A program made the position numbers and the translations under genes. Source: a virus. Taken from it: a DNA stretch of 50,067 nt. Below are positions 7,745-22,510 of the stretch, one piece after another (position 1 is the stretch's first letter; the number at the start of each line of letters is the position of its first letter). The notes beneath the pieces were generated by a model. The model saw nothing but the letters and a program-made list of their open reading frames with translations. It searched no databases and was not told the DNA's origin. The DNA lies in the IMG/VR virus record IMGVR_UViG_3300010354_015069, positions 1 through 50,067 of that record, one strand, 5' to 3'.

Positions 7745-8902
7745 ATGTATAGAATTACAAGTAATGAAGTTCAGGGATTGATGGAAGCATATAATGCTGT
7801 ATATACTCCTCAAGAACTCACTGAAGAACAAATCTGGGAAGAAGTTGAAACTTGGGTAAATTCACTTGTAGAAGAAGGTTATGACTTGAGTGATTATACT
7901 TGGGAAGAGATGTATGAGGCTTATTTGAATGAGATGGGGCAGACTAGAACCACTGGTCAAGCAACTGCACCAATTTCTAATGCACCATATCAATCAAGAT
8001 TTGCTCGCCCAATGAATGCTGGAACTCCCCGACAGACTGGAAGAGGAACTGCAGTATCTAGACCACAAATTGGAAGTCTTCCATCAAATTACAGAGGAGC
8101 AGAACTTCAGCAGACTGCAAGAGCAAGAGCATCACAAGTAGGTACAACACGCCAAGGAACTGCAGGTGGTCCTACAACTGGTGGAAATACTCCTATTGGA
8201 CCTTCACCTTCAAGAACCGCTGCTCCTACTACTCAACCTCCTCGTAATCGTCTACCTGCCACTAGACCTACTGCCCCTGTTGCTCCAGCAGTAAGTTCTC
8301 CTGATAAAACTAAGAATAAGCCAAAGCCTAATCCAACTGCTCCAACTGCTCCAACTGCTCGTAAATATGAAAAAGATGATTCAATTCAACAAATGATTAC
8401 AAGGTCTCAACAGAGACAAGCCGAAATGACACCAAAACCAGAGATATCAAAATCAAGTGCTCCAAGAGTTCCGATTTCACCGGGTGCTGCTAGTGATTCT
8501 GGTGTGAGATATGCAAGTAGAGATACAAATGCTGCGGTTGGATCTCCTTCTAGACCCACTTTCAAATCCGCAAGAGAAAGAGTATTGAATCAACATTTTG
8601 ATCTTTTTGATATAATTAAAGGGCATCTTCTTGATGAAGGTTATGCTGATACCGAGGAAGCAGCAGAAGCAATTATGGTAAGTATGAGTGAGGATTGGAA
8701 ACAGAGTATTTTAGAAGTAAGTGCTCCCCCACATCCAGTAGATCTTCCTCCTCCAGTAAGTTCTCCACCTCCAGTAAATTCTCTCCCTAAACTAACTACT
8801 CCACCTTCAGTACCTAAGGAAAAAGATAAAAGATTACCTAAATTAACTACTCCACCTCCAGTACCTCCAGCGAAAATACCACCTTTACCTCCAGTTAAAT
8901 AA
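7745..8902 (+). CDS. Modular low-complexity protein with capsid-targeting-like N-terminus
   Basis: A 385-residue protein with four parts. The N-terminus has VQGLMEAYNAVY, where LME-A fits the T4 gp21 prohead protease site (L/I-x-E, cut before A). A helical module follows (EEQIWEEVETWVNSL to MYEAYL, residues 26-60), nearly identical in DNA to the 9463 gene. A long Pro/Thr/Ala/Arg-rich disordered region comes next. A second helical module (FDLFDIIKGHLLDEGYAD to MSEDWKQSILE, about 286-326) is shared with four other genes here, and a proline-repeat tail ends the protein. Late promoter upstream. I infer a virion-packaged internal protein; no enzyme activity is visible. Confidence 0.65.
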   Translation: MYRITSNEVQGLMEAYNAVYTPQELTEEQIWEEVETWVNSLVEEGYDLSDYTWEEMYEAYLNEMGQTRTTGQATAPISNAPYQSRFARPMNAGTPRQTGRGTAVSRPQIGSLPSNYRGAELQQTARARASQVGTTRQGTAGGPTTGGNTPIGPSPSRTAAPTTQPPRNRLPATRPTAPVAPAVSSPDKTKNKPKPNPTAPTAPTARKYEKDDSIQQMITRSQQRQAEMTPKPEISKSSAPRVPISPGAASDSGVRYASRDTNAAVGSPSRPTFKSARERVLNQHFDLFDIIKGHLLDEGYADTEEAAEAIMVSMSEDWKQSILEVSAPPHPVDLPPPVSSPPPVNSLPKLTTPPSVPKEKDKRLPKLTTPPPVPPAKIPPLPPVK

Positions 8903-8908
8903 AAATAT

Positions 8909-8934
8909 AAAACCTCCCACGTGGGAGGTTTTTT
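8909..8934 (+). terminator. Rho-independent terminator
   Basis: Nearly loop-free palindrome AAAACCTCCCAC / GTGGGAGGTTTT followed by T residues, directly after the 385-residue gene. The T run leads into the next late promoter. Confidence 0.85.
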
Positions 8935-8941
8935 ATAAATA
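8934..8941 (+). promoter_or_regulatory. T4-type late promoter box TATAAATA
   Basis: Exact consensus 19 bases before the ATG at 8960, overlapping the end of the preceding terminator. Confidence 0.75.
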
Positions 8942-8959
8942 CCTAAAAAGTATTAAGTG

Positions 8960-9421
8960 ATGAAAACTTACGAAGAATTTATTAGAGAAGCTTATAAAAA
9001 ATCTTATGGTGAAATTGATGAAGGATTGGGAACTTTAGCTAGTAGAGTAGGAAGATTTATTCCTGGATTGCAGACAGCTGCTGGTTTGGGACTTGCCGGA
9101 TATAGATTATATAAAGGAGATAAAACTGGTGCTGCTCTCGCTGCAGGTTCTGCTATTCCTGGACCTATTGGATGGGGATTTGCGGGTGCAGATATTGCCA
9201 GAGAAGTTGGCAAATATCAACAATCTCAAAAATCAGCAAAACCAAAACCACCAACATCACCAAAATCAGTAACTCCAACCACACCAAAACCATCAGGAAA
9301 AGTTTTATCAAAACTTGGTGGAGTTGAAGGAACTGGAGTTGGAAAAGAATTTGTTCCTACTAAAGGTGGATGGAAAGTAGGAGAAAAAGAAAGATACGAG
9401 AAATATAAAACAAAAGTTTAA
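8960..9421 (+). CDS. Internal-protein-like product with T4-type capsid-targeting sequence and hydrophobic glycine-rich core
   Basis: The N-terminus MKTYEEFIREA differs in only two positions from the capsid-targeting sequence MKTYQEFIAEA that I know from T4 internal proteins. Cleavage would fall after IRE. Next is a Gly/Ala-rich amphipathic and hydrophobic region (about residues 15-70: AAGLGLAGYRLY, GAALAAGSAIPGPIGWGFAGA) like a membrane-inserting hairpin. A Pro/Lys linker follows, then a C-terminal LGG-x3-G segment also found in the 9463 protein. The ATG at 8960 is preferred to a GTG one codon earlier. Inferred role: packaged and possibly injected protein acting at a membrane. Confidence 0.6.
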   Translation: MKTYEEFIREAYKKSYGEIDEGLGTLASRVGRFIPGLQTAAGLGLAGYRLYKGDKTGAALAAGSAIPGPIGWGFAGADIAREVGKYQQSQKSAKPKPPTSPKSVTPTTPKPSGKVLSKLGGVEGTGVGKEFVPTKGGWKVGEKERYEKYKTKV

Positions 9422-9426
9422 TATAT

Positions 9427-9434
9427 CATAAATA
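9427..9434 (+). promoter_or_regulatory. Late promoter-like box CATAAATA
   Basis: Seven of eight bases match TATAAATA; it lies 28 bases before the ATG at 9463, the same spacing as other late promoters here. Confidence 0.5.
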
Positions 9435-9462
9435 AGGTTATAGAACAATTAAGAATTACAAG

Positions 9463-10722
9463 ATGTCAATACAACTTACTGAAGAACAAATCTGGGAAGA
9501 AGTTGAAACTTGGGTAAATTCACTTGTAGAAGAAGGTTATGACTTAAGTGATTATACTTGGGAAGAGATGTATGAGGCATATTTAACTGAACTAAAAGGT
9601 GTTCCAGTTAGTTTTTTTGGACGTGCTGGACATCATATTTGGCAAGGTGCAAAACCAGTTGCAAAAAAAGTTTTATCTCAACTAGGAAAATTTGGTGTAG
9701 CAGGTGCAGTAGGTTTAACTGCTGATGAACTTTTAACTCGTGGAGCTGGAAGAGAATTAGTTGGTAAAGCATTACAACAAACCAGAAAACTTGGACCAGC
9801 ACTTAGAGGAGAACCTACAGATAGCGTAGGCACTGCTAAACCCAAACCTTCAGGAGAAACAGGTCAAATAATATCTGCCGCTGGTGGAAAAGGTGGTAAA
9901 GTTACAGTAGGTAAAGAATATGCTGCAACTTTAGGTGGTAAAAAGGGAACGGTAAAATATGATCCTTCTGGTAAAAAATCATTCACCGCACAATTAAACG
10001 CTTCATACGAGTATGATGCTTTTGACCTTATTCTTGAGTATCTCGCCTCACAGGGGCACGTAGAGACCTTAGACGAGGCACTTTATGTGATGATGGAGAT
10101 GGATGGTGAGGTCATTCAAGATATTGTTAGTGAAGCATATAATAATATTATTGTCTCTCATCTTTTAGATGAAGGTTATGCTGAAACACCAGAAGCAGCA
10201 GAAGTCATTATGGTGAATATGAGTGAAGACTGGAGAGAAAGTATTGTTGAGGATGGAGTAACTAATGTTCTTAAAGGATTTGGATATCCGGGTGCTATCG
10301 CAGCTTATGGACTTAATAGATTAAGTGGTGGAAGAATAGCTAAACCAGATCTAGAAGCACCAGCACCAAAACCAAAACCAAAACCATCAACATCTTTCAA
10401 TAGAGGAGGTGCTGGAGGATTAGTTACAACAGATAAAGAATATCGATCAAGACTTGGTGGTGTTTCGGGAAATTCATATACTGATGATAGAAACAATACT
10501 TATTTTAAACCTGATATTACATCTCCAAGTTGGCGTAGATCTGGTATGACGCCCAATATTAAATACCGATCTACTGGATATAATAATTATAACAGACATT
10601 TAGATTTGCCCCTAGGTCAAACAAAACTTGAACCTGGACAGGAAAAAAAAGTTCAAAGAACTTTTGGTGACAAACCATTGGTAAGACCTAGCATTTATGA
10701 TGATAAGAGGGATTTAAAATAA
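9463..10722 (+). CDS. Modular low-complexity protein with two repeated helical modules
   Basis: A 419-residue protein. Residues 5-40 repeat the EEQIWEEVETW module of the 7745 gene. Then come a Lys/Gly/Pro region, LGG-type short motifs (GKEYAATLGG, DKEYRSRLGG), a helical segment (ASYEYDAFDLILEYLASQG, about 182-200) and the widespread LLDEGYAETPEAAE module (about 230-262) ending SIVED. There is no separate MKTYxEFI-type start, but MYEA at 37-40 could serve as a prohead protease site. Inferred to be a virion-associated internal or scaffold-like protein. It ends 76 bases before a terminator. Confidence 0.6.
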   Translation: MSIQLTEEQIWEEVETWVNSLVEEGYDLSDYTWEEMYEAYLTELKGVPVSFFGRAGHHIWQGAKPVAKKVLSQLGKFGVAGAVGLTADELLTRGAGRELVGKALQQTRKLGPALRGEPTDSVGTAKPKPSGETGQIISAAGGKGGKVTVGKEYAATLGGKKGTVKYDPSGKKSFTAQLNASYEYDAFDLILEYLASQGHVETLDEALYVMMEMDGEVIQDIVSEAYNNIIVSHLLDEGYAETPEAAEVIMVNMSEDWRESIVEDGVTNVLKGFGYPGAIAAYGLNRLSGGRIAKPDLEAPAPKPKPKPSTSFNRGGAGGLVTTDKEYRSRLGGVSGNSYTDDRNNTYFKPDITSPSWRRSGMTPNIKYRSTGYNNYNRHLDLPLGQTKLEPGQEKKVQRTFGDKPLVRPSIYDDKRDLK

Positions 10723-10798
10723 TAAACATTTAATAACTACTTCTTAAACTAACATATTACTTTTTCAATAAATTGTTATAATATCTTAACATAACTTT

Positions 10799-10826
10799 AA
10801 GAGGTTCTTGACAGAACCTCTTTTTT
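10799..10826 (+). terminator. Rho-independent terminator
   Basis: GAGGTTCT / AGAACCTC stem with a four-base loop and six T residues. It lies between the plus-strand modular gene and the minus-strand endonuclease gene. The 10723-10896 gap otherwise holds no gene I can support. Confidence 0.8.
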
Positions 10827-10896
10827 ATTACTATAATACCTTTGTTGGGTTTGGAGATAAGGATTAGCTAAGTTACTTTAAGTTACTTAAAGACAC

Positions 10897-11316
10897 CTAT
10901 TCAAAACCCTTAAGAACTGAATTGTAAATATTCTCTACTTCACTATCAAAGAATTTACCTTCAATATTTGTATTATAATAACATTCATTCATTAAAACAT
11001 TACGAGTGAACTGTTCATAGGTTTCATAATAAGACATTGATTTCTTATGAGGGCAAATATAAAGTATTTCTCTTAAGAACTTATCCTTTCCTAATGTCTT
11101 TACGTCTTCTTTTAATTCATCACAAGAACCAAAATAATCTTTCCAGTTACTTTCTTTAGTTTTTCTACGACCAGTTTTACGATCCTTTTGTCTAGTCCAG
11201 AAGTGCTTTTTACCAATATATTTTCTTTGATTTTCTAAATTGGTTATACAATAAACAAAACCTTCCATATTCTTTGGTATTTCGCCAAAAGGTTGATTAT
11301 TATAAAACCAAGTCAT
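10897..11316 (-). CDS. GIY-YIG-like endonuclease of T4-type phages
   Basis: A 139-residue protein whose N-terminal half carries GFVYCITNLENQRKYIGKKHF, the GIY and YIG strands spaced as expected (VYC...KYIGKK). It continues with SNWKDYFGS, REIL and a Tyr/Glu helix YYETYEQF as in GIY-YIG nucleases. The catalytic Arg/Glu cannot be assigned with certainty. It is alone on the minus strand between plus-strand units, typical of a free-standing homing endonuclease. Confidence 0.65.
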   Translation of the reverse strand: MTWFYNNQPFGEIPKNMEGFVYCITNLENQRKYIGKKHFWTRQKDRKTGRRKTKESNWKDYFGSCDELKEDVKTLGKDKFLREILYICPHKKSMSYYETYEQFTRNVLMNECYYNTNIEGKFFDSEVENIYNSVLKGFE

Positions 11317-11403
11317 AAAAATAAATATTATTACTAATATTTAGATACTTGTCATGGGGATTTAATTGTGATAAAGTGAGATCATCTATTTGTTTTGTAA
11401 ATA

Positions 11404-11580
11404 ATGAAGCTTCATAATTTGCTTAGAATTTCAAATGATTGGGCTGTTGATCGCATACATACACTATGTGATAATCATCATTATGAGAATGCGTATGCAA
11501 TACAAAATGAATTTAGAGAATGGTTAGATCCTGAGATTGAAGAACATGATATTTTCTCATTAGAGTATATCGGAGATTAA
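11404..11580 (+). CDS. Small hypothetical protein (58 aa)
   Basis: ATG to TAA, two bases before the L,D-transpeptidase start, so the pair is probably co-translated. Composition is protein-like (MKLHNLLRISNDWAVD, FREWLDPEIEEHD) with an acidic second half. No motif recognised. A helper or regulator for the next gene is possible but unproved. Confidence 0.5.
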   Translation: MKLHNLLRISNDWAVDRIHTLCDNHHYENAYAIQNEFREWLDPEIEEHDIFSLEYIGD

Positions 11581-11582
11581 AA

Positions 11583-12095
11583 ATGATTGGACCAAAGAAA
11601 ACGCCAAAGGACTTTGGATTTAAAAAAGGTGATAGTCATTTAGTGGTGAATGATATTACCGAAAAAGTAAAGGCATTTAGTTTTGAAGGAAAGTTACTTT
11701 GGGAACTTCCAGCACTTGCAAGAGGGCAGGGAAGTGATTATGAATTTAAATTTTCAAATACTGATACTCCTCCTGGTCTTTATAGAATTGAAACTATTCA
11801 TAAAGATTATGAAAGAGTTGGAAAGACACCATCATATTCTAGAGAATTGAGGTCTTTTGGTTGGTATAGTTTTGATTTAATTGACCTTGAAAATCAAGAA
11901 GGAAAATATGGTCGTGGTGGAATTATGATACATGGTGGTGGAAGTGCTTGTGGTTGGCCGAAATGTTGGGATCCATATCAACCACTTTATTCTACTCACG
12001 GATGTATTAGAATGCATAACAAGGATCTCAAAGATTATATACTTCCTCTAACCAAAACTGGAATTGTTTATGTTTCAGTATATCAAGAAGGATAA
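11583..12095 (+). CDS. L,D-transpeptidase (YkuD family)
   Basis: Forms or exchanges 3-3 cross-links or attached groups on peptidoglycan using a catalytic Cys. The signature is clear: IMIHGGG near residue 120, then STHGCIRMHN near 138-147, matching the YkuD pattern H-x(14-17)-[S/T]HGC with the Cys as nucleophile. Length 170 equals a bare catalytic domain. No signal peptide or membrane segment is visible, so it must act after lysis, on entry, or by another route. It is flanked by GIY-YIG genes (10897, 12099), so it may be mobile cargo. Confidence 0.8.
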   Translation: MIGPKKTPKDFGFKKGDSHLVVNDITEKVKAFSFEGKLLWELPALARGQGSDYEFKFSNTDTPPGLYRIETIHKDYERVGKTPSYSRELRSFGWYSFDLIDLENQEGKYGRGGIMIHGGGSACGWPKCWDPYQPLYSTHGCIRMHNKDLKDYILPLTKTGIVYVSVYQEG

Positions 12096-12098
12096 TAT

Positions 12099-12866
12099 AT
12101 GATTACTTATATTGCCCGTAATATATCAAATGGAAAATTTTATATTGGAAGTACCTTAGATTTTGAGAAAAGAAAAAGACAACATTTATTATCTAAAGAG
12201 AATTATCCATTTCAAAATGCTCTAAGACAAAATCCAGATATATTTGAGTGGGAAATAATAGAAGATGAATCTAGTGAAAGAATCTTAGAACAATCTTTAT
12301 TGGATATGTGGTTTGGTAAAGAAATTTGTTATAATTTGAATTCAAAAGCAAATAATCCACCTATAGTTGATAAAGAAATAAATTATTCCAACGGAAAAAA
12401 TGTTGAAAATATGAAACTTGGATTTCATAATCCTGAATATAGAAATTCTAAAAAATATAAAAAAATGCAAATGGATACTGGAAAAAAATGTGCTGAATTG
12501 AAAATTGGTATTCATAGTGAAGAATATAAAAAATCTAATAGATCTAAAGAAGTCAGTAGTAATAATGGTAAAATTACTGGTAAAAGAAATTTTTTGAATA
12601 AAAAAGGTATTTTTGATCCAAATTATAAAAATTCTCAAAAATTTATAGAAGATACTAAAAAAAGATTGGAAAGAACAAAAGAAGTTTGTAGTAAATCAAT
12701 AATTATTATTGAACCTAATGGAAAAGAATATACTTTTTATTCTATGAATGATGCAGAGAGAAAACTTGGTATAAAGAATCAAACAATTTCTAGAACTGCT
12801 AAAAGAGGAACTGCAATAACTAAAGGAAAATGGAAAGGTTGGAAAGTCATTTATCAAGAGAGTTAA
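12099..12866 (+). CDS. GIY-YIG homing endonuclease, free-standing
   Basis: A 255-residue protein. The N-terminal GIY-YIG domain (residues 1-95) has TYIARNISNGKFYIGST, Arg in FEKRKRQH, and a later Glu in ERILEQSLL. The middle has NUMOD3-like basic repeats (NPEYRNSKKYKK, SEEYKKSNRSKE). The C-terminus has a NUMOD1-like helix-turn-helix (YSMNDAERKLGIKNQTIS). This is the usual layout of phage homing endonucleases. Its first domain resembles the endonuclease inside psbA intron 1. It lies 3 bases after the L,D-transpeptidase gene. Confidence 0.85.
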   Translation: MITYIARNISNGKFYIGSTLDFEKRKRQHLLSKENYPFQNALRQNPDIFEWEIIEDESSERILEQSLLDMWFGKEICYNLNSKANNPPIVDKEINYSNGKNVENMKLGFHNPEYRNSKKYKKMQMDTGKKCAELKIGIHSEEYKKSNRSKEVSSNNGKITGKRNFLNKKGIFDPNYKNSQKFIEDTKKRLERTKEVCSKSIIIIEPNGKEYTFYSMNDAERKLGIKNQTISRTAKRGTAITKGKWKGWKVIYQES

Positions 12867-12869
12867 GAT

Positions 12870-12877
12870 TATAAATA
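12870..12877 (+). promoter_or_regulatory. T4-type late promoter box TATAAATA
   Basis: Exact consensus 20 bases before the ATG at 12897. Confidence 0.7.
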
Positions 12878-12896
12878 ATTAAAAACTATTTGTAAG

Positions 12897-13574
12897 ATGA
12901 ATCAACAAGAATTACAAGGTCTTCAAGAAGCATATTTCAGTGTTTATAATCAACCTGAAGTTCTTAACGAATTTAATGTTGTAGATGTAGTTAGAAAAGC
13001 AGATACAAATATTAATACTGGTATTAATGCTCTTCGTGGTAAACTCGGTTTACCTCCTAAAAAATTTAGTACAGATTCTGTAAGAACTGAATTGCGTTCT
13101 AGAGGACCGGTCCTAGGACCTCAAACTCCATCTAGACCACTTCCAGAAGAAGCAGACCTCTACGACATCATCCTCTCACATTTACTTGATGAAGGATATG
13201 CTGAAACACCAGAAGCAGCAGAAGTCATTATGGTGAATATGAGTGAGGATTGGAGAGAGAGTATTTGTGAAGAACTTACTGGTGAAAGAAGAAAGATAGC
13301 AATCAAAAAAGGATTTAAACATCTTGCTACTGCAAGAGAAGGGTCGGCTGTAACACAAAATGCTGATAAAAATATGCCCACAAGGAGAGGTGGTAGTTCT
13401 GGGTTGAAGAGAAATCCAAATCGTTGGGGGAAACCGGGACCCATTAAACCTGGGCCTGGTGTCCTTAATAGGGATGACAGAGGTTCAGCTAATAAAGCAA
13501 ATAGGAGATTAGGTAAAAAAGTTAAAGATAATGAAAATAGATACTACTGGAATGATAAAGATCCTGATTTTTGA
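12897..13574 (+). CDS. Modular protein with capsid-targeting-like N-terminus and LLDEGYAETPEAAE module
   Basis: A 225-residue protein. N-terminus MNQQELQGLQEAYFSVY: LQE-A fits a gp21-type cleavage site at residue 11. The helical module DLYDIILSHLLDEGYAETPE to MSEDWRESICEE spans about 87-124. The rest is basic and disordered, rich in Arg, Lys, Gly and Pro. It has the same layout as the 21791 gene and shares long DNA identity with it in the module. Late promoter upstream, terminator downstream. I infer a DNA-binding internal virion protein. Confidence 0.65.
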   Translation: MNQQELQGLQEAYFSVYNQPEVLNEFNVVDVVRKADTNINTGINALRGKLGLPPKKFSTDSVRTELRSRGPVLGPQTPSRPLPEEADLYDIILSHLLDEGYAETPEAAEVIMVNMSEDWRESICEELTGERRKIAIKKGFKHLATAREGSAVTQNADKNMPTRRGGSSGLKRNPNRWGKPGPIKPGPGVLNRDDRGSANKANRRLGKKVKDNENRYYWNDKDPDF

Positions 13575-13597
13575 TCCCACTTCCTGAACAGACACAT

Positions 13598-13622
13598 AAG
13601 AGGGTCTCACCACCCTCTTTTT
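13598..13622 (+). terminator. Rho-independent terminator
   Basis: AAGAGGGT / ACCCTCTT stem with a six-base loop and T run, just after the 12897 gene and before the endolysin's late promoter. Confidence 0.8.
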
Positions 13623-13624
13623 AT

Positions 13625-13632
13625 TATAAATA
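13625..13632 (+). promoter_or_regulatory. T4-type late promoter box TATAAATA
   Basis: Exact consensus 21 bases before the endolysin ATG, consistent with late lysis gene expression. Confidence 0.75.
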
Positions 13633-13653
13633 ACTAAAAATTCTTATATAAGA

Positions 13654-14322
13654 ATGACTATTAAATTTACTGATGCTGCAAAGTTTTATGAAGAAACTCC
13701 AGAACAAAAAGCAGCATGGGAGTGGCTTCAGGCAACAATTCCTGATAATCTTTTAGAAGAATTTGCCGAAAAATATCGCAAAAAACCAGAAGTAAAATCA
13801 TTAATTACTAAGAAACAACTTTCTTATATTTGGTCCAGAAAAGAAAGTGAAATTTCTGATGCTGTAATTAATGATTTAAATCGCTGTTTGAATACATTTA
13901 AAATTAATACTAAATCAAGAATGAGACATTTTATTTCTCAAATTTCTCATGAGAGTGGTGGAGGTAAATGGATGAAAGAAATTGCCTCTGGTGATGCTTA
14001 TGAAGGAAGAAGGGATTTGGGAAATACTCAACCAGGAGATGGTAGAAAGTTTAAGGGTGGTGGATTTATTCAATTAACTGGAAGAGCAAATTATTCTGCT
14101 TTTGCTAAGTATATGAATGATTCAAGAATTATGGAAGGAGTCGATTATGTTGCATCAAAATATCCGGCAACGAGTGCTGGTTTTTGGTGGCATAATAACA
14201 ATATGAATGCATTATGTGATAAAAATCCTACAGTAGAGGAAGTAACTAGAAGAGTGAATGGTGGTTATAATGGAATTCTCGACAGACATCAGTATTATAA
14301 TAAATGTTGTTTTGTAATTTAG
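13654..14322 (+). CDS. Endolysin, glycoside hydrolase family 19 (chitinase-like)
   Basis: Cleaves glycan strands of peptidoglycan at lysis. The GH19 domain covers about residues 65-215. The first catalytic Glu is in [10 protein letters not shown] (about 101), the second in WMKEIASG, followed by [15 protein letters not shown] and [10 protein letters not shown], the family's best-known motifs. The usual GRG before FIQLTG reads GGG here. The C-terminus is short, ending KCCFVI. The N-terminal ~60 residues are a helical extension. No signal peptide, so a holin or other route is needed. The 3' end overlaps a minus-strand gene by 77 bases. Confidence 0.88.
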
Positions 14323-14473: not shown

Positions 14474-14491
14474 TTTTTTGTGTCTTAAATG

Positions 14492-15340
14492 TTAGTAATT
14501 TTTGATAATATTTTGTTTCCAATCTCTACTCATATTTTTCATAATATTCATTGCTGATTTTTTTGTATCAGCATAACCCTCATTAATTAAATGATTTAAA
14601 ATATAACTTTCAAATGTATAACCAGACCAATTATCACCTTTTTCTTTAGCATATTGTTGGAATAATTTTTTTTGTTCTGGTGTTAACTTGTTAATTTCTG
14701 ATTGAATTCTTCCTTTTGCGAAGGGATTATCTTTATTGGAATAACCTTGTTGGTAAAGTTTTTGTTGCTCTGGTGATAATGTTGGTGTTGTTGGTGGTTT
14801 TGGTGGGGTAGTAGTTGAAGTTGGTGGTTTAGACTGTCCTGCTGGAGGAGTTCCTACTTGTGGTTTAGGTTGTGTTGGAGCAGTTGTTCCTTTGACTGCA
14901 TTTGGGTTATTAACTAAACTTTGATTACCTTTTCCTAGTTTAGAAACATCTGTAGATTGAACCGAAGGTGTCATAGGCATTCTTGCTCTCATTTCTGGAG
15001 AAAGTAATGGATTATCTGATTGAGATGTTCCACGAATTCTTCTTTTTTCTGCTTCAGCGGCAGCAAGTTGTGGATTTGCTTTTGCCCATTGTGGATTGAT
15101 TGGACTTAATGGACGTGATTGACTTATTAGTGATGGCGATGATTTTGGTTCTTCTGGTGTTGGTTTAGGTGTTTGTATTGCTGGTGTTGGTTTAGGTCCA
15201 ATTCCAGGAACTGCTCCTTTAGCAGCAAGTTGAAAACCTAAAGTTGGGGAAGTCAGAGGTTTTGGTGGTGTAACTACTTCATTTAATTCATAAATGCTGT
15301 AATATGCTTCAAGTATAGTTTGATATTTTTTATCGTTCAT
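14492..15340 (-). CDS. Proline-rich modular protein with capsid-targeting-like N-terminus
   Basis: A 282-residue protein. N-terminus MNDKKYQTILEAYYSIY: ILE-A fits a gp21-type cleavage site and AYYSIY parallels AYFSVY and AYLSVY in the plus-strand relatives. A long Pro/Thr/Ser/Gln-rich disordered middle follows. The C-terminal helical module (SYILNHLINEGYADTKKS to MSRDWKQNII, about 240-280) is a diverged copy of the repeated module. Own late promoter at 15365-15358. Inferred internal virion protein. Confidence 0.65.
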   Translation of the reverse strand: MNDKKYQTILEAYYSIYELNEVVTPPKPLTSPTLGFQLAAKGAVPGIGPKPTPAIQTPKPTPEEPKSSPSLISQSRPLSPINPQWAKANPQLAAAEAEKRRIRGTSQSDNPLLSPEMRARMPMTPSVQSTDVSKLGKGNQSLVNNPNAVKGTTAPTQPKPQVGTPPAGQSKPPTSTTTPPKPPTTPTLSPEQQKLYQQGYSNKDNPFAKGRIQSEINKLTPEQKKLFQQYAKEKGDNWSGYTFESYILNHLINEGYADTKKSAMNIMKNMSRDWKQNIIKNY

Positions 15341-15356: not shown

Positions 15357-15695
15357 TTATTTATAAATTTCTGCCATTTTTTCATCTAACATTTTTTGAT
15401 TAATTGAAACTGAATTTCCTTTTAGATATAAAGTTCCAAGCATTCTTCCATACTTATCTTCTTTTGTGGTTTCAATAATCCATTCACCATCAACTGATAA
15501 TTCTTTTTTTAACCATTCTTTTGCTGCCAATCCTCGTGTTTTCTCTTCTTCGTTGATTGTTTTTGTTTCAGCAGCATTAATTCCTTTCAGTCTAATTCTT
15601 TGAGTGATTGTAAGATTAAACCCTAAATCAATTTCAATATCTATTGTATCACCATCAACTATCTTTTTGATGGTTTTGATTTTGTATTGATACAT
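15357..15695 (-). CDS. Staphylococcal nuclease-like thermonuclease
   Basis: A 112-residue single-domain nuclease. It has VDGDTIDIEIDLGF (calcium-binding Asp residues), RIRLKGINAAE (catalytic Arg and Glu) and DKYGRMLGTLY (second catalytic Arg), in the order of the SNase family. It is predicted to cut DNA or RNA in a calcium-dependent way. No signal peptide, so probably cytoplasmic: host DNA breakdown or nucleotide salvage. It is in the middle of the minus-strand operon, overlapped at its start by a small membrane protein gene. Confidence 0.85.
   Translation of the reverse strand: MYQYKIKTIKKIVDGDTIDIEIDLGFNLTITQRIRLKGINAAETKTINEEEKTRGLAAKEWLKKELSVDGEWIIETTKEDKYGRMLGTLYLKGNSVSINQKMLDEKMAEIYK
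15358..15365 (-). promoter_or_regulatory. T4-type late promoter box on minus strand
   Basis: TATTTATA on the plus strand reads TATAAATA on the minus strand, 17 bases before the ATG of the 282-residue gene. It overlaps the last codons of the nuclease gene, so this gene can be driven apart from the rest of the operon. Confidence 0.65.
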
Positions 15696-15986: not shown

Positions 15987-15992
15987 GATACG

Positions 15993-16109: not shown

Positions 16110-16154
16110 TAGAGGCACTTATAGGTGACATTATTATTTAGTTAAACCAATGGG

Positions 16155-16183: not shown

Positions 16184-16225
16184 CAAATATCCTCATAATT
16201 CCTAAATATTAGATTATTATGAATT

Positions 16226-16312
16226 ATGTGGACCGAGAGCTGGGGGTATCAGTCTTTAGATAGACAACGTGCGATGATATCAAAGCCCAGATGTAGAGTT
16301 CAATTTATTTAA
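16226..16312 (+). CDS. Possible 28-residue leader peptide
   Basis: ATG to TAA ending exactly at the base before the lysozyme-like gene's ATG. Protein MWTESWGYQSLDRQR... has two Trp and no low-complexity bias. It could be a translationally coupled leader peptide, or chance. Low confidence. Confidence 0.3.
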   Translation: MWTESWGYQSLDRQRAMISKPRCRVQFI

Positions 16313-17002
16313 ATGTTAAAAACCCTTTCAATTATAGCCGTTTCTGTTTTGGGAACTGCTACAGCATCAGCGGCAACAATGCCATCTATGAATATCCAAA
16401 CTTCACAAACTCCTCCGATTGAAATTGCAACTAATTCTAGTTCTCAACCCATTTCAGTGAACGAGGAGTTTTCCATTAAGGATAGTCAAGATACAACGCC
16501 TCAAGAGGTTGTACCAGAAAAGCCTATAGAGAAAAGGCTAGTTTGTAAAGGATGCAATGAAAATGAAAACATCACGCTTTCATTTCTACAGGATAATGGA
16601 GTTAAAGACAAAAATGCCCTAGCCACTATTATGGGTAATATTCGACAGGAATCTTCTTTCTTCCCCAATATTTGTGAGGGTGGAGCAAGAGTTTCCTATC
16701 GTGGATGTAGAAGAGGTGGTTACGGTGCGATTCAGTGGACGGATGCCAAGAGGTACTATGGTCTTGGAATGTTTGCTTCAAAGATGGGAGGCGATCCTTC
16801 CTCTCTTGGCACACAACTTGAATATCTTCTTTATGAAGATGATTGGAAAATGATTGAGCCTCATATGAAACGTCCTGGTGGTTCGATTCATGATTATATG
16901 AGACTTGCTCGTAAGTGGATTCGTTGGGGACATCACGGAGCAAGAACTCATTATGCTTATGATTATTCAAAAAGATTAATCTTCACTGAATCCGAAAGTT
17001 AA
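16313..17002 (+). CDS. Secreted phage lysozyme-like protein (tail lysozyme fold)
   Basis: A 229-residue protein with a Sec signal peptide (MLKTLSIIAVSVLGTATASA, cleavage probably after ASA), a Ser/Pro/Thr-rich linker and a CKGC motif near 75. The C-terminal domain (about 80-225) has IMGNIRQESSFFPN, GGYGAIQWTDAKR and a Tyr/Asp helix, the pattern of the phage tail lysozyme family; the Glu in RQESS is the likely catalytic acid. It is predicted to act in the periplasm on peptidoglycan. The NlpC/P60-like gene follows after 32 bases. Confidence 0.75.
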   Translation: MLKTLSIIAVSVLGTATASAATMPSMNIQTSQTPPIEIATNSSSQPISVNEEFSIKDSQDTTPQEVVPEKPIEKRLVCKGCNENENITLSFLQDNGVKDKNALATIMGNIRQESSFFPNICEGGARVSYRGCRRGGYGAIQWTDAKRYYGLGMFASKMGGDPSSLGTQLEYLLYEDDWKMIEPHMKRPGGSIHDYMRLARKWIRWGHHGARTHYAYDYSKRLIFTESES

Positions 17003-17034
17003 ATTAACTTCCATTAACCCACTCAAAATGAAAG

Positions 17035-17487
17035 ATGGTAGTTACAGTAGAAGAAGTAAAACTTCTGGAAACAGATTTTTACTCATCATACAACAGAATA
17101 AAATCACAATTTAATTATTATGATGGTTACAGAAACAATTGCTCCAATGTAGTTAGAAAATTCTTATCTGAAATTGGAGTAGATGTTTCAAAAGTAACAC
17201 CTTATGCTGATACTGTTCGTAATTTAGGATTAATACGATTTAATACTAAAGATCTTGAGATTGGGGATGTTGTTGCTATGGGAAGACCTGGCGACACTTG
17301 GCACGTTGGAGTTTATATGGGTTTGAATAAAGTCCTTCATCAATCAGCATCAAGAGGATACAAAATTGGAATTTATAACGATTTAACTGCTTTTATACAT
17401 CATCGTGCTGGATTCTATTTCGTAAGACCAACTTATCCAGTTCGTTATATACTGCGTGAACATTTTATTGCACCTGATATAGGATAA
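17035..17487 (+). CDS. NlpC/P60-like cysteine peptidase
   Basis: A 150-residue protein with the order Cys-His-polar expected of NlpC/P60 peptidoglycan amidases and endopeptidases: YRNNCSNVVRKFL (Cys at about 38), DLEIGDVVAMGRPGDTWHVGVYMG (His near 87) and a later His/Gln pair (VLHQSA). No signal peptide. It pairs with the secreted lysozyme-like protein upstream and ends in a strong terminator. Together they would cut glycan and peptide bonds. Confidence 0.7.
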   Translation: MVVTVEEVKLLETDFYSSYNRIKSQFNYYDGYRNNCSNVVRKFLSEIGVDVSKVTPYADTVRNLGLIRFNTKDLEIGDVVAMGRPGDTWHVGVYMGLNKVLHQSASRGYKIGIYNDLTAFIHHRAGFYFVRPTYPVRYILREHFIAPDIG

Positions 17488-17498
17488 TAAATAAAACT

Positions 17499-17523
17499 GG
17501 GAGAGTTCTTCTCTCCCTTTTTT
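17499..17523 (+). terminator. Rho-independent terminator
   Basis: GGGAGAG / CTCTCCC stem, five-base loop, T-rich tail, directly after the NlpC/P60-like gene. Confidence 0.85.
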
Positions 17524-17539
17524 CTTTTCTTTCTCATAA

Positions 17540-18016
17540 ATGAAAATATATCTTTTGGGAAGAAGAACTCTTGCAGCAGCAATTATTTCTGCTGTAATTA
17601 GTTTTTTAATTTTCTTTTTAAAATCAAATGATATTATTATTAGTGAGAAAACAATATGGAAAATTTATTATGAAGTTCAAAAATTATTCAAACAATATTT
17701 TCCTGATGATAATGAATTACAAAGAGAAATTCAGGATCAATTAAATCGCAAAATAATTGAAGATGAGGAGCTTCGTGAATATAAGGTTCGTAGAGATGTA
17801 GATTATGCTCTTTTGGATTATGAAAGATTGGAAAGAGAAAATTATATTCCAAATATGAAAAATCAAAATATTTTAGAAGAAATCAATAAACCAAAATACA
17901 ATGAATTGCAACGAAAAATTATAAAAGATGCAGTTTATTATGAGTTTGCTGATGGCACTATGGGTATTCGTGGTGCTTGGGTTCCACCAGATCCCAGAGA
18001 AATACCATTGGAATAA
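17540..18016 (+). CDS. Membrane-anchored helical protein (158 aa)
   Basis: A single N-terminal membrane segment (residues about 9-27, TLAAAIISAVISFLIFFL) after a basic start, then a long charged helical region with coiled-coil tendency (ELQREIQDQLNRKIIEDEEL) and a C-terminal FADGTMGIRGAWVPPDPRE segment. The topology resembles an inner-membrane spanin, and it follows two cell-wall enzyme genes, but no outer-membrane partner is visible. Function unproved. Confidence 0.6.
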   Translation: MKIYLLGRRTLAAAIISAVISFLIFFLKSNDIIISEKTIWKIYYEVQKLFKQYFPDDNELQREIQDQLNRKIIEDEELREYKVRRDVDYALLDYERLERENYIPNMKNQNILEEINKPKYNELQRKIIKDAVYYEFADGTMGIRGAWVPPDPREIPLE

Positions 18017-18060
18017 ATGGTATATATAATTAAATCCTTATTACTTAATTGGAAATTATT

Positions 18061-18270
18061 ATGGACGAAACAACACAACAAAGTCACCTTAAAGAACTTA
18101 TTCAACAAAAAGAAGCATTACAAACTGAGATTAATAACCTTCAAAATGTGATGTCATCTAAAAGAGATTTATTCTTAAAAGTTCAAGGTGCAATTGAATA
18201 TCTTACACAAATTGGTGTGACACTTCCTGAAGTGGAAGAAACACCATCAGAAGAACCAGAAGAGGATTGA
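18061..18270 (+). CDS. Small coiled-coil protein (69 aa)
   Basis: Start chosen at ATG 18061; a TTG 12 bases earlier is less likely. The protein forms a heptad coiled coil (LKELIQQKEALQTEINNLQ), then LFLKVQGAIEYLTQIG and an acidic Pro/Glu tail. This pattern is common in phages as a conserved unnamed protein. It directly precedes the tRNA cluster. Confidence 0.65.
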   Translation: MDETTQQSHLKELIQQKEALQTEINNLQNVMSSKRDLFLKVQGAIEYLTQIGVTLPEVEETPSEEPEED

Positions 18271-18342
18271 CATTTTAAAACTTCACTGGTATTATAAGAA
18301 GGTAGTTGAGGGATAAAAATCTTGATACTACTTTTTTCTTAT

Positions 18343-18415
18343 GGGCACGTAGCATAATGGATAATGCAGCATCCTTCTAAGATGTCGATTGGGAGTTCGA
18401 CCCTCTCCGTGCCTG
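18343..18415 (+). tRNA. tRNA-Arg (anticodon TCT)
   Basis: Cloverleaf folds by eye: acceptor GGGCACG with CGTGCCT (one G-T end pair), D-stem GCAT/ATGC, anticodon loop CTTCTAA and T-arm GGGAG-TTCGACC-CTCTC. CCA is not encoded. It reads AGA codons, which are frequent in this AT-rich phage. Confidence 0.9.
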
Positions 18416-18592
18416 CTTGGAGATTTATTTTCCATATATAAAACCGATAGAGGGTAAGTCTCTGTTATATCCTTATGAGGTATATCACACTTACTCCATC
18501 AAAATGTAGGAAGTGCAATCCCTCTCGCTGGTTACGGCTGGATGATGGAAAAGGTGATTCTGTCCGCACATAGAGATCCCTCCTACCACCAT

Positions 18593-18664
18593 TCCCCTGT
18601 AGCTCAGCGGTAGAGATATCGACTGTTAATCGATTGGTCACAAGTTCGAATCTTGTCGGGGGAG
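18593..18664 (+). tRNA. tRNA-Asn (anticodon GTT)
   Basis: Acceptor TCCCCTG with CGGGGGA, anticodon loop CTGTTAA, T-loop TTCGAAT. CCA not encoded. Second of four clustered tRNA genes. Confidence 0.92.
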
Positions 18665-18770
18665 TTGGAAGGTCTGGAAATGTCTGGGTCTTCTAAATTT
18701 AATAAGGTATGGAAAGTAAAAGGAGCATGGGAACCGAAAGGAGATACCGCACCTGCCTTATTATCTTATT

Positions 18771-18836
18771 CACTGCTTTCTAATGCAGTGAAAATTGCAG
18801 AAAGTGTCTTCTGCGGGTGGTGGGCACTCACTACCC
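18771..18836 (+). repeat. Three consecutive hairpins before tRNA-Thr
   Basis: Perfect inverted repeats in tandem: CACTGC/GCAGTG (18771-18790), GCAGAA/TTCTGC (18797-18814) and GGGTGGTG/CACTACCC with one G-T pair (18815-18836). They end four bases before tRNA-Thr. They lack T runs, so they are unlikely terminators and may be RNA-processing signals. The rest of the 18665-18770 spacer holds no gene I can support. Confidence 0.6.
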
Positions 18837-18840
18837 ATTT

Positions 18841-18912
18841 GCCGAAGTAGCTCAGTGATAGAGCAGGAATTTTGTAAATTTCAGGTCGCAGGTTTGATCC
18901 CTGTCTTCGGCT
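18841..18912 (+). tRNA. tRNA-Thr (anticodon TGT)
   Basis: Acceptor GCCGAAG with CTTCGGC, D-arm AGCTCAGTGATAGAGC, anticodon loop TTTGTAA, T-loop TTTGATC. CCA not encoded. Confidence 0.9.
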
Positions 18913-18914
18913 CT

Positions 18915-18936
18915 TGACATAATACTCATTATGTCA
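18915..18936 (+). repeat. Perfect hairpin between tRNA-Thr and tRNA-Gly
   Basis: TGACATAAT / ATTATGTCA, a 9-base perfect inverted repeat with a four-base loop, three bases after tRNA-Thr. A second one, GGGAG/CTCCC, lies at 18972-18987 before tRNA-Gly. No T run follows either. Confidence 0.6.
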
Positions 18937-18993
18937 TATACTTCAAATGTCCGTGTGAAGTGAAGTGCGTAGGGAGAGAAATCTCCCATATTT

Positions 18994-19065
18994 GCGGGTG
19001 TAGTTCAGTGGTAGAACGCTATCCTTCCAAGTTAGATGTCGCCCGTTCAAATCGGGTCATCCGCT
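18994..19065 (+). tRNA. tRNA-Gly (anticodon TCC)
   Basis: Acceptor GCGGGTG with CATCCGC, D-arm AGTTCAGTGGTAGAAC, anticodon loop CTTCCAA, T-loop TTCAAAT. CCA not encoded. Last of the four-tRNA cluster. Confidence 0.92.
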
Positions 19066-19123
19066 TTCCTCAAGAAATTGAGGATACTAAATAAACTTCG
19101 TAGTTACAATTCTTAATAACTAT

Positions 19124-20596
19124 ATGAAACTTCTACAAAAACTAATGCTACTTCCTGTTGCTTTAGGACTTGTTGCTCCTGCTGCGAATGCGGCAAATCT
19201 GAATATGGATGGGGTAAATAAGTATTCTTCTGAAGAGCAGGTTACTAGCATCAATCAATTTTCTGACGTAAAATCCACCGATTGGGCATATCAGGCACTC
19301 AGCAATCTTGTTGAGCGTTATGGATGTGTAGCAGGGTATCCAAATGGTACTTATGCTGGTGGTAAGTCAATGACTCGTTTTGAGGCAGCAGCACTTTTGA
19401 ATGCTTGTCTTGATCGTGTAACAGAAACTACAGATGAACTACAACGTCTGCTGAAAGAATTTTCTGCAGAACTTGCTGTACTTCGTGGACGTGTAGATGG
19501 TCTGGAGAAGAAAGTAGGAAATCTTGAGGCAACTCAATTTTCTACTACTACCAAACTCAGAGGTGAAGCAACCTTTGTTCTGGGTGGAGTTCCAAATCTT
19601 AGGACAAATGCTGGTGGAAACGTAGGCAACACCGCATTTAACTATGATGTTCGCCTGAACTTTGATACTTCATTTACTGGTAAGGACCTTCTTCGCACTC
19701 GTCTGCGTTCTGGTAATTTCAGCACTGATCCTTTTGGATCAAGCTCATCTCTGTTTAAACTTGACAAGGCAGAAAGTTTTGCTGATCAGGTAGTACTTGA
19801 TCGTCTTTACTATCAATTCCCAGTTGGAAATAGTGTAACTATTACTGCTGGTCCAATGGTTCGTAACACTGAAATGACTTGGATTCCTTCGGCATATAAG
19901 TCGGACATCCTTGACTTCTTCCAACTTGCTGGTGCTTCTGGTGTCTATAACAAGGCAACAGGTGCTGGTTTTGGTGTTCAGTGGAAACAACCTGGAAAAT
20001 CTGGTGTTATTGCTAACCTGAACTATGTTGCTCAGTCTGGTAACAGTTCAACTACTGGTGTCTTTGATGCTGCTGGTGGTCTTAACCTTCTGGCACAACT
20101 TGGATACCGTGCTCCTCAATGGGGTATGGCAGTTGCTTATCGTTATGGTACTGAAGGAACTCGTGTTCGTAACTTCAATGCTCTGAGAGGTGGTTCTGCT
20201 GCTCTAGTAGCAGGTCAATCTACCAATTCTCTTGCTGTGAATGCTTATTGGCAACCACAACAATCTGGTGCTGTTCCATCAATTTCTGCTGGTTACGGAT
20301 ATAATGGCGTGACTGGTAATGGTCCTGTTACTGGTGCCACTACTTCAAATTCTTGGTATGTTGGTCTTCAGTGGGCTGATGTATTTGCTAAGGGCAATGC
20401 TGCTGGTATTGCCGTTGGACAACCAGGAAATTCTGAAAATATTAGTGCTGATGCAACTATGCTTGAACTCTTTTACAAGTATAGGGTATCTGATAATATT
20501 GCCATTACTCCTTCTATCTTCTACGTCTCCAATAACCAAAGGTTCCAAAATAGTTCTTCTTGGGGTGGCGTGATTCAGACCACATTTAGGTTCTGA
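19124..20596 (+). CDS. Cyanobacterial-type outer-membrane porin (SLH + OprB-like barrel)
   Basis: A 490-residue protein with a signal peptide (MKLLQKLMLLPVALGLVAP to ANA). An S-layer-homology domain (about 44-105: FSDVKSTDWAYQALSNLVER, MTRFEAAALLNACLDRV) would bind the cell wall. A short coiled coil (AVLRGRVDGLEKKVGNLEA) follows, then a long beta-barrel ending in Phe (TTFRF), the outer-membrane insertion signal. This is the layout of cyanobacterial SomA/OprB-type porins. The region looks less AT-rich and more host-like than its neighbours, so it was probably taken from a host. It would change uptake of small solutes through the infected cell's outer membrane. PstS follows. Confidence 0.88.
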   Translation: MKLLQKLMLLPVALGLVAPAANAANLNMDGVNKYSSEEQVTSINQFSDVKSTDWAYQALSNLVERYGCVAGYPNGTYAGGKSMTRFEAAALLNACLDRVTETTDELQRLLKEFSAELAVLRGRVDGLEKKVGNLEATQFSTTTKLRGEATFVLGGVPNLRTNAGGNVGNTAFNYDVRLNFDTSFTGKDLLRTRLRSGNFSTDPFGSSSSLFKLDKAESFADQVVLDRLYYQFPVGNSVTITAGPMVRNTEMTWIPSAYKSDILDFFQLAGASGVYNKATGAGFGVQWKQPGKSGVIANLNYVAQSGNSSTTGVFDAAGGLNLLAQLGYRAPQWGMAVAYRYGTEGTRVRNFNALRGGSAALVAGQSTNSLAVNAYWQPQQSGAVPSISAGYGYNGVTGNGPVTGATTSNSWYVGLQWADVFAKGNAAGIAVGQPGNSENISADATMLELFYKYRVSDNIAITPSIFYVSNNQRFQNSSSWGGVIQTTFRF

Positions 20597-20618
20597 TAAA
20601 CTACTCATAATTTGAGTG

Positions 20619-20650
20619 ATACTACCCCCAAAAGGGGTAGTATTTTTTTA
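20619..20650 (+). terminator. Rho-independent terminator after porin gene
   Basis: ATACTACCCC / GGGGTAGTAT perfect stem with a short loop and T run. It separates the porin transcript from pstS. Confidence 0.88.
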
Positions 20651-20664
20651 TAGGTAAAAATTCT

Positions 20665-20683
20665 CTTAACCTTCTCTTAGTTG
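20665..20683 (+). promoter_or_regulatory. Pho box (PhoB/SphR binding site) upstream of pstS
   Basis: Two 8-base direct repeats, CTTAACCT and CTTAGTTG, separated by three bases, match the cyanobacterial Pho box pattern. They lie 64 bases before the preferred pstS start. Host phosphate-starvation control of cyanophage pstS is known, so host-regulated expression is likely. Confidence 0.6.
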
Positions 20684-20747
20684 TAATACGATTACTTCTA
20701 TGATAGACTTGAAGCGTAGTTTTTATTACACATACAAAAATTTTTTT

Positions 20748-21713
20748 ATGAAACTTAAACATTTCGTTTCTATTACTTGTCTTGCTCTTATTCCTGGTGC
20801 ATCTCTTGCTGGATCAACGATAAATGGTGCTGGAGCAACTTTCCCTGCACCTCTATACCAAAGATGGTTTCAAGATTATTCTTCATCAGGTAATCGTGTG
20901 AATTATCAAAGTGTGGGATCCGGAGCAGGAGTAAGGCAATTTATCGCTGGCACTGTTGATTTTGGTGCTTCTGACGAACCAATTTCAGCAAAAGATGTTG
21001 CTAAAGTGAAGCGTGGTGTTGTTCAAATTCCTATGATTGGAGGAACAATTGCTATTGCTTATAACAAACCAGGATGTTCTCTCAAACTTACTCAAAAACA
21101 AACTGTAGATATTTTTTCAGGACGTATTAATGACTGGAAACAAGTAGGATGTTCTGCTGGTCCAATGAGAGTTGTTTATCGTTCTGATGGTTCTGGAACT
21201 ACCTTTGCCTTTACTAATTCTCTGGATGCTTTTGGTGGATGGTCTCCTGGTGTTGGTAAGTCTGTAAAATGGCCTACTGGTGTTGGTGCTAAAGGTAATG
21301 AAGGTGTTTCTGGAACAATTAAAACAACTCCTGGTGCTATTGGTTATGTGAATACTGGATTTGTAAAATCAAATAAACTTCAAGTTGCATCACTTCAAAA
21401 TAAAGCAGGACAGTTTGTTCTTCCTAATGCTAAATCAGGTGCTGCTGCTTTGAATAGTATTAAATTGGATCCTATTACTCTTGCTGGAGAAAATCCAAAT
21501 CCTTCTGCTTCGGGTGCTTATCCAATTTCAACTTTGACTTGGATTCTTGCATATAAAACTGGTAATGGTTCAAAGGCAGATGATATTCGTGCTGCCTTGA
21601 ATTATGCTTTGAGTTCTAAGTCACAAATGATTGCTGATGATCTTGGATATGTTCCTCTTGCTGGTAGTATTTTAAATAAATCCAGAATTGCTGTTAAACG
21701 AATTGGTAGTTGA
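20748..21713 (+). CDS. pstS: Phosphate ABC transporter substrate-binding protein
   Basis: Binds phosphate in the periplasm and hands it to the host PstCAB transporter. Start set at ATG 20748, which opens a clear signal peptide (MKLKHFVSITCLALIPGASLAG); an in-frame ATG at 20700 would add 16 unlikely residues. Binding-site motifs: GAGATFPAPLY, SVGSGAGVRQF, FGASDEPIS, and RSDGSGTTFAF. Length 321 is typical of phage PstS. It sits after a Pho box and next to a porin gene, suggesting joint boosting of phosphate uptake. Confidence 0.93.
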   Translation: MKLKHFVSITCLALIPGASLAGSTINGAGATFPAPLYQRWFQDYSSSGNRVNYQSVGSGAGVRQFIAGTVDFGASDEPISAKDVAKVKRGVVQIPMIGGTIAIAYNKPGCSLKLTQKQTVDIFSGRINDWKQVGCSAGPMRVVYRSDGSGTTFAFTNSLDAFGGWSPGVGKSVKWPTGVGAKGNEGVSGTIKTTPGAIGYVNTGFVKSNKLQVASLQNKAGQFVLPNAKSGAAALNSIKLDPITLAGENPNPSASGAYPISTLTWILAYKTGNGSKADDIRAALNYALSSKSQMIADDLGYVPLAGSILNKSRIAVKRIGS

Positions 21714-21733
21714 TAATATATAATCTATAATTT

Positions 21734-21764
21734 AAACCACTCAAATTATTTGGGTGGTTTTTTT
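21734..21764 (+). terminator. Rho-independent terminator after pstS
   Basis: AAACCACTCAAA / TTTGGGTGGTTT stem (one G-T pair), three-base loop and T run, just before the next late promoter. Confidence 0.85.
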
Positions 21765-21771
21765 ATAAATA
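21764..21771 (+). promoter_or_regulatory. T4-type late promoter box TATAAATA
   Basis: Exact consensus 19 bases before the ATG at 21791. Confidence 0.75.
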
Positions 21772-21790
21772 ACTAAAAAGTATTTGTAAG

Positions 21791-22510
21791 ATGGACGCAC
21801 AAGAACTTAGCAATCTTCAAGAAGCATATTTGAGTGTTTATGATAATATAATGGAAAAGGAAGATAGTCCTTATGAAAAAGCATCTGATGCGGCATTAGA
21901 TGCAAGATATGGATATGGTAGAGCAACTGGTGATAAGCGTTCTTTTGGTAGAGCAGCAAATCGTTCTTCTGCTGCCGCTGCTCTTCGTGCTATTAGAAGA
22001 GGTAAAAGAAGTGGTAGTGGAACTTCAAGAGAAGCAGGTGCTGATGCAGTTCACCAAGGTTGGGCAAGAACAGCAAAAACAAGTGCCGACCAAACTCCAG
22101 AGAAAAAGAAAAGAAGAGCAAAACTTGCAAATACATCATACTCAAATCTTCCTGATGATGAAAAGGAAAAAGATAGAGTATCTTTTGATGCTGTGAGAGC
22201 AGTTTATAATAGAAGAAATCAAAGAGAAGAAACAGACCTCTACGACATCATCCTCTCACATCTTCTTGATGAAGGATATGCTGAAACACTAGAACAAGCA
22301 GAAGTCATTATGGTGAATATGAGTGAAGAGTGGAGAGAAAGTATTGTTGAAGCAAAAGTGGATGAAAGAATTCCAGAACACAAAAGATCTGCTGCCAGAC
22401 TGGCAAGATATGATAATCCAAGCGGTGCTTTAATGTTGGGTGGTGGGCAACAAAGAGCACGTAGAGAAGAACATAAACAAAGAAGAGGAGTTAGAACAAG
22501 AGGTAGATAA
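21791..22510 (+). CDS. Basic modular protein with capsid-targeting-like N-terminus
   Basis: A 239-residue protein. N-terminus MDAQELSNLQEAYLSVY, with LQE-A as a gp21-type site, matches the 12897 protein closely. A long Arg/Ala/Ser/Gly-rich basic region (residues 40-145) follows, then the helical module DLYDIILSHLLDEGYAET to MSEEWRESIVEA (about 148-187) and a basic tail. The module ends SIVE-A, itself a possible second cleavage site. The high Arg content suits contact with packaged DNA. Inferred internal virion protein. Confidence 0.65.
   Translation: MDAQELSNLQEAYLSVYDNIMEKEDSPYEKASDAALDARYGYGRATGDKRSFGRAANRSSAAAALRAIRRGKRSGSGTSREAGADAVHQGWARTAKTSADQTPEKKKRRAKLANTSYSNLPDDEKEKDRVSFDAVRAVYNRRNQREETDLYDIILSHLLDEGYAETLEQAEVIMVNMSEEWRESIVEAKVDERIPEHKRSAARLARYDNPSGALMLGGGQQRARREEHKQRRGVRTRGR

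Follow-up and report, generated by a model that had tools for sequence, protein, structure and literature searches.

Bacteriophage T4 packs internal proteins (IPs) into its head. IPI, IPII and IPIII share the leader MKTYxxFIxE, a basic and variable body and a cut site at L/I-x-E. In IPIII ten residues are enough for packaging; positions 4 and 7 serve targeting and positions 8 and 10 processing, and the protease gp21 cuts after L/I-x-E (PMC9026906). Cargo carrying this capsid-targeting sequence (CTS) is known in T4, where a further packaged and gp21-processed protein, Alt, is an ADP-ribosyltransferase. That T4 relatives load varied proteins by means of this signal has been proposed by reviewers (PMC9026906). 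Within the literature searched we found no paper tying CTS cargo to cyanophages. PMC7411985 and PMC5694885 describe, for SPN3US-type giant phages, a large head-packed set of ejection proteins of which several are cut by the prohead protease; these phages belong to another lineage, and the likeness is one of description only. In oceans and lakes few viruses are more abundant than the T4-like cyanophages, yet it has so far not been possible to predict which of their numerous unknown proteins reach the cell together with the DNA.

The 50,067-base stretch analysed here, IMG/VR record IMGVR_UViG_3300010354_015069 (the window), derives from a T4-like cyanophage of the Kyanoviridae, of which it is a fragment. 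The nearest isolate to its first 25 kb is Synechococcus phage S-SRM01 (26% covered at 78% identity by blastn), with which gene order is collinear from nrdA/nrdB to the endolysin, porin and Dps genes. Six window genes, named by their start positions, carry a candidate head leader: class 1 comprises 8960 and 44903, class 2 comprises 7745, 12897, 15340 and 21791. We consider it likely that their products are T4-type late head cargo, relieved of the leader by a gp21 homologue and probably injected. An N-terminal leader of some 10–14 residues would take the protein into the prohead core, where a gp21-type prohead protease would cut behind the Glu of L/I-x-E; the leader peptide would leave, and the basic mature body would remain with the DNA and probably be injected with it. 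The loading signal of class 1 would be a T4 IP-type CTS, and in class 2 a second, cyanophage-type leader, LQEAYxxVY, cut between E and A, would do the same job. The set differs from the T4 IPs in lying in a cyanophage genome and in having a second leader with its own conserved promoter and 5′ untranslated region (UTR) and a C-terminal module.

Six N-terminal sites and their late boxes

The preliminary description had listed six [LI]xEA sites, and all are present: LMEA at residues 12–15 of 7745, IREA at residues 8–11 of 8960, LQEA at residues 9–12 of both 12897 and 21791, ILEA at residues 9–12 of 15340 (minus strand) and ITEA at residues 8–11 of 44903. For 8960, the ATG at 8960 was judged a likelier start than the earlier GTG at 8957 offered by the open reading frame (ORF) tool. 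Among 56 hand-curated window genes, exactly these six have the motif beginning at residues 6–14. Equal-sized internal stretches contain it in 5 of 1,262 cases, so that 0.22 would be expected against the 6 observed (P = 1e-7, a somewhat optimistic value because the motif was chosen after the sequence had been read).

It had further been proposed that each gene has its own late promoter or late-like box. The exact box TATAAATA lies 25–35 bases upstream of five leader genes; 44903 has instead the late-like TCTAAATA, 22 bases before its start. The exact box thus precedes 5 of the 6 leader genes and 4 of the 50 others (Fisher p = 1.8e-4), and late expression is predicted for the six from these consensus matches. 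Over the whole window TATAAATA is weakly over-represented (12 observed, 7.2 expected), counts that by themselves prove little. The mature bodies of all leader proteins in the window are basic (pI 9.1–10.5; Table 1), as are the T4 IPs (PMC9026906).

Proteins with the T4-type leader in cyanophage virions

The leaders MKTYEEFIREA (8960) and MKTYKDFITEA (44903) match all four mutagenised positions of T4 IPIII, with an aromatic residue at 4, Phe at 7, a hydrophobic residue at 8 and Glu at 10, which bears out the likeness to T4 internal proteins noted earlier. Matches of the two proteins to internal-head-protein families (E 0.06–0.07) carry no weight alone. We expressed the T4 positions as the rule M[KNQR].[FYL]..[FY][ILMFV].E and applied it to cyanophage S-CREM2 (OR473000), at every ATG, GTG or TTG start of at least 60 codons on both strands. 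Five proteins match, namely gp6 (S-adenosylmethionine (SAM) hydrolase), gp13, gp14 (kinase), gp136 and gp154 (cytidylyltransferase), two of them of unknown function, and all five belong to the published virion proteome (PMC10665884), a study that mentions no N-terminal signal. With a looser rule on the annotated S-CREM2 genes, 5 of 6 matches are virion proteins (Fisher p = 0.003), and internal windows match in 3 of 2,790 cases. This test is strong but not blind, the N-termini of the virion set having been known before the regular expression was fixed. Applied to a cyanophage whose proteome is published, a rule derived from T4 mutagenesis thus selects non-structural proteins borne by the virion. 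It points to candidate delivered enzymes: SAM hydrolase, kinase, cytidylyltransferase and ADP-ribosyltransferase.

A close described counterpart in cyanomyoviruses is the virion-associated cytidylyltransferase (T4-GC190, phrog_395). It keeps the leader MK[KNRS][FY]xxF[ILV]xEA in nine of the phages compared (S-RIM8, S-SSM5, Syn10, S-SM1, S-SRM01, B23, S-CREM1, S-CREM2 and G001, the last a 247-kb contig). The single rule match in about 144 kb of S-SM1 is SSM1_190 (T4-GC190), reported from the S-SM1 virion (PMC3037559), and S-SZBM1_140, with the variant leader MRFRQFIIEA, was likewise detected in virions (PMC9146016), so that virion presence is proven in three phages, S-CREM2 included. Leaders in S-CREM2 and S-SM1 include MKDFDSFLEE, MKNFSSFLTE and MKKFSAFLNE, and gp258 of S-SRM01 begins MKNFHQFITE. 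The enzyme body is different from those of the window proteins, and the S-PM2 and Syn1 copies are leaderless. That of S-PM2 went undetected in the virion, which fits, but weakly, as seven real structural proteins were also missed in that study. The match to the T4 targeting residues and the S-CREM2 proteome support well the head packing that the preliminary description had suggested, as far as class 1 is concerned; we have little doubt that class 1 is packaged, and cleavage of its leader is very likely.

A single strict spelling of the leader retrieved at least 76 non-redundant class-1 proteins from IMG/VR, with bodies otherwise mostly unrelated. Among the matches listed are cytidylyltransferases, several ADP-ribosyltransferase-like proteins, a double-psi-barrel lytic enzyme, DUF5661, DUF6321 and the phage internal-head or virion families phrog_2667, 8765 and 5341. 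As a separate observation, the virion-detected Cas9-like protein of S-CREM2 (OR473000; L020:7704-10313, minus strand) has LRFASFMAEAA after some 15 extra residues; delivery of a Cas9, if true, would be unusual.

No relative of 44903 was found in isolated phages; in IMG/VR, 24 loci among the matches listed encode one. In 16 aligned relatives, with identity to the window protein down to 38%, M1, K2, F7, E10 and H26-G27 are invariant. Pfam finds no ADP-ribosyltransferase (ART) family in the window protein alone; among the 16 relatives it assigns ART-PolyVal to 7, with DUF3990 (5.6e-4), Tpt1 and PARP in others. An AlphaFold model made with the 16 relatives has a mean confidence (pLDDT) of 67.6. 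The first 28 Foldseek rows for this model are ART-fold proteins (Tpt1, toxin catalytic domains and PARPs; best E 0.01), and the VIA-align rows shown are also ART-fold, with Z up to 7.9 and a root-mean-square deviation of 3.0 over 82 residues in model residues 19–122. Because these moderate values agree when taken together, 44903 probably has an ART fold, and ADP-ribosylation activity is predicted. The combination of a head leader with this probable fold recalls T4 Alt. Alt is several times longer than the 141-residue 44903, which has a T4 IP-type leader and showed no sequence relation to Alt in our searches.

The class-2 leader and its C-terminal module

The x-x-EAYxSVY start had correctly been assigned to the other four genes. 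What had been overlooked is that these four and the leaderless 9463 have in common a conserved module of 40 residues, DIYDIILSHLLDEGYAETPEAAEAIMVNMSEEWRESI, which lies close to the C-terminus (the EGYA module of Table 1). Searched with this module, IMG/VR yielded more than 550 stretches, and 80 loci were kept; a late box lies upstream of 92 of the 106 module-bearing reading frames. Alignment on the tyrosine of 76 non-redundant leaders, in 69 of which it is residue 13, gives M-[DN]-[AS]-Q-[DE]-[LF]-R-N-L-Q-E-A-Y-x-x-V-[YV], or MDAQELRNLQEAYxxVY in its consensus form; S-SRM01 gp269 has AYNAVY directly behind its leader Glu. At the predicted cut, P3 is L or I in 75 of the 76, P1 is E in 73 and P1′ is A or S in 74; the L/I-x-E of the predicted gp21-type site is found in all six window genes. 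The middle of the class-2 body is hypervariable and rich in lysine and arginine, and 2–5 copies occur per genome in ten records.

Class-2 leaders do not have M-K-x-[FY]-x-x-F-[IL], the T4 CTS sequence type, and plain membership of that group was rejected on sequence. Class 2 may instead be a second leader type that works like the CTS. Its sequence families are phrog_3708, phrog_22522 and phrog_27516, for which PHROGs gives neither function, leader nor head role; no function was found in Pfam either, and a RyR match (E 0.018) carries no weight alone.

Several observations link the classes. A 97-residue body (81% identity, E 1.6e-55) stands behind MKTFQEFITEA in locus L171, and locus L071 has it behind a class-2 leader; there are five weaker cases of one body behind either leader, so the two leaders look interchangeable. 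The 27-base 5′ UTR TATAAATAnCTAAAAAGTATTTGTAAA is nearly fixed before class-2 starts, and class-1 gene 8960 has a near-identical stretch. Genes with a UTR of this type have a class-1 or class-2 leader in 49 of 64 cases, against 84 of 382 genes with other late boxes, in a sample whose construction enriches it for leader genes. Head packing of class 2 is thus supported indirectly, by the conserved L-x-E-A, the shared promoter and 5′ UTR, the basic mature body and the leader exchange, and we regard packaging with processing as fairly likely. As far as the literature could be searched, the second leader, its cassette and leader exchange are undescribed. If the second leader type is true, it would widen the list of head-borne proteins by hundreds, with candidates for counter-defence and for host take-over at the start of infection.

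Among identical module residues, 31 of 34 codons are identical between 12897 and 21791, which suggests recent gene conversion for this pair only; most other pairs have lower codon identity, and conversion was rejected as a general account of the shared module. The leaderless 9463-10722 protein has an N-terminal block of about 37 residues nearly the same as that of 7745, codons included. Because it is leaderless and acidic, we do not count it as cargo despite its shared modules and late-like box, and it is probably not processed.

Competing explanations and neighbouring genes

Some observations tell against the cargo interpretation. The Glu is missing in 3 of the 76 class-2 leaders (locus L062, S-SRM01 gp231 and DSL-LC02), and no class-2 protein is covered in the published virion proteomes compared. 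In S-SZBM1 (50 kb scanned), the small T4-type leader genes 191 and 192 went undetected in the virion and were counted as misses. The gp21–gp23 genes of the window's own phage fall outside the window. In favour of the interpretation, a gp21 homologue is present in S-SRM01, S-CREM2, S-SM1 and G001, and the major capsid proteins (MCPs) of relatives have FLSEA, ILTEA or LLTEA around residue 50, a site like that of T4 gp23; the MCP of G001 has FLYETG at this position. Abundant cell proteins can accompany CsCl-purified virions, according to the authors of the S-CREM2 study (PMC10665884), and the leader proteins might accordingly be late cytoplasmic proteins, for example host-control factors, detected in the virions of relatives as contaminants. 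This we find scarcely credible, since all five S-CREM2 rule matches were detected when most other non-structural proteins were not, and T4-GC190-type enzymes recur in independent virion proteomes.

For class 2 alone, two further explanations merit attention. With class 1 as true T4-type cargo, class 2 could form a prohead core or scaffold, like T4 gp67, gp68 and IPIII, destroyed by gp21 or shaping the head, its bodies not delivered. A second LxE[AGS] within 21 residues in 30 of the 76 class-2 members (14 of 325 control windows) would suit such a fate, as would the several copies per genome and the module on most members, suggestive of one common structural partner; T4 IPIII itself influences head assembly (PMC9026906). 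We nevertheless hold this to be unlikely: the bodies are hypervariable, unlike conserved core proteins, they are basic rather than acidic, and one of them is also found behind a class-1 leader. Less probable still is an uncleaved docking helix for assembly of tail, baseplate or shell, its L-x-E-A a matter of helix composition. Conservation of the Y and V that follow the site equals that of the site itself, and the three members without Glu still have Y..[VM], but the near-invariance of L/I, E and A/S (73–75 of 76 each) fits a protease, and the MCP of relatives has the same L-x-E-A. Within the head-cargo reading, injection of the mature bodies is somewhat favoured. More tentatively, and with the balance tipped slightly against it, LQEAYxxVY may be a second head-loading signal within an exchange cassette, in which late promoter, 27-base UTR and leader on one side stay nearly fixed and the 40-residue module on the other is conserved, hypervariable effector bodies being swapped by recombination between them to provide each phage with several injected anti-host proteins.

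Table 1. Leader genes of the window, their late boxes and shared modules
Feature	Position	Strand	Remarks
Late promoter box TATAAATA of 7745	7710..7717	+	
Class-2 leader MYRITSNEVQGLME	7745..7786	+	predicted cut after E14
Class-2 protein	7745..8902	+	385 aa, proline-rich middle, mature pI 9.1, phrog_3708
Block LTEEQIWEEVETWVNSLVEEGYDLSDYTWEEMYEAYL	7817..7930 and 9475-9588	+	37/38 aa identical, 33/37 of those codons identical
C-terminal EGYA module of 7745	8597..8713	+	
Late promoter box TATAAATA of 8960	8934..8941	+	
Class-1 leader MKTYEEFIRE	8960..8989	+	T4 IP capsid-targeting type
Class-1 protein	8960..9421	+	153 aa, mature pI 9.9
Late-like box CATAAATA of 9463	9427..9434	+	
Leaderless relative	9463..10722	+	two EGYA modules, acidic (pI 5.5)
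Late promoter box TATAAATA of 12897	12870..12877	+	
Class-2 leader MNQQELQGLQE	12897..12929	+	
Class-2 protein	12897..13574	+	225 aa, mature pI 9.4
EGYA module of 12897	13152..13268	+	
Late promoter box TATAAATA of 15340	15358..15365	-	
Class-2 leader MNDKKYQTILE	15308..15340	-	
Class-2 protein (gene 15340)	14492..15340	-	282 aa, mature pI 9.8
C-terminal EGYA module of 15340	14504..14620	-	
Late promoter box TATAAATA of 21791	21764..21771	+	
Class-2 leader MDAQELSNLQE	21791..21823	+	
Class-2 protein	21791..22510	+	239 aa, mature pI 9.6; relative at 219527 in 247-kb contig G001
EGYA module of 21791	22232..22348	+	
Late-like box TCTAAATA of 44903	44881..44888	+	
Class-1 leader MKTYKDFITE	44903..44932	+	
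Class-1 protein	44903..45328	+	141 aa, probable ADP-ribosyltransferase fold, mature pI 10.5

Elsewhere in the window, porin-like, PstS-like and Dps-like genes cluster around class-2 gene 21791 (19124-23007), and a long series of glycosyltransferase, epimerase and sugar genes (24742-38607) probably serves surface polysaccharide modification. psbA (40911-42430) is apparently split by an intron that holds an endonuclease-like ORF (41494-41895) with its own TATAAATA box; psbA of S-SRM01 is split in similar fashion. Three homing-endonuclease-like ORFs lie at 12099-12866, 40225-40944 and 43423-44181. At the window edge, 31-720 encodes a protein with a DUF3008-like start, RDFAKTKHKGLP, and a weak match to phrog_10538, a family represented in two class-1 cargo proteins as well.

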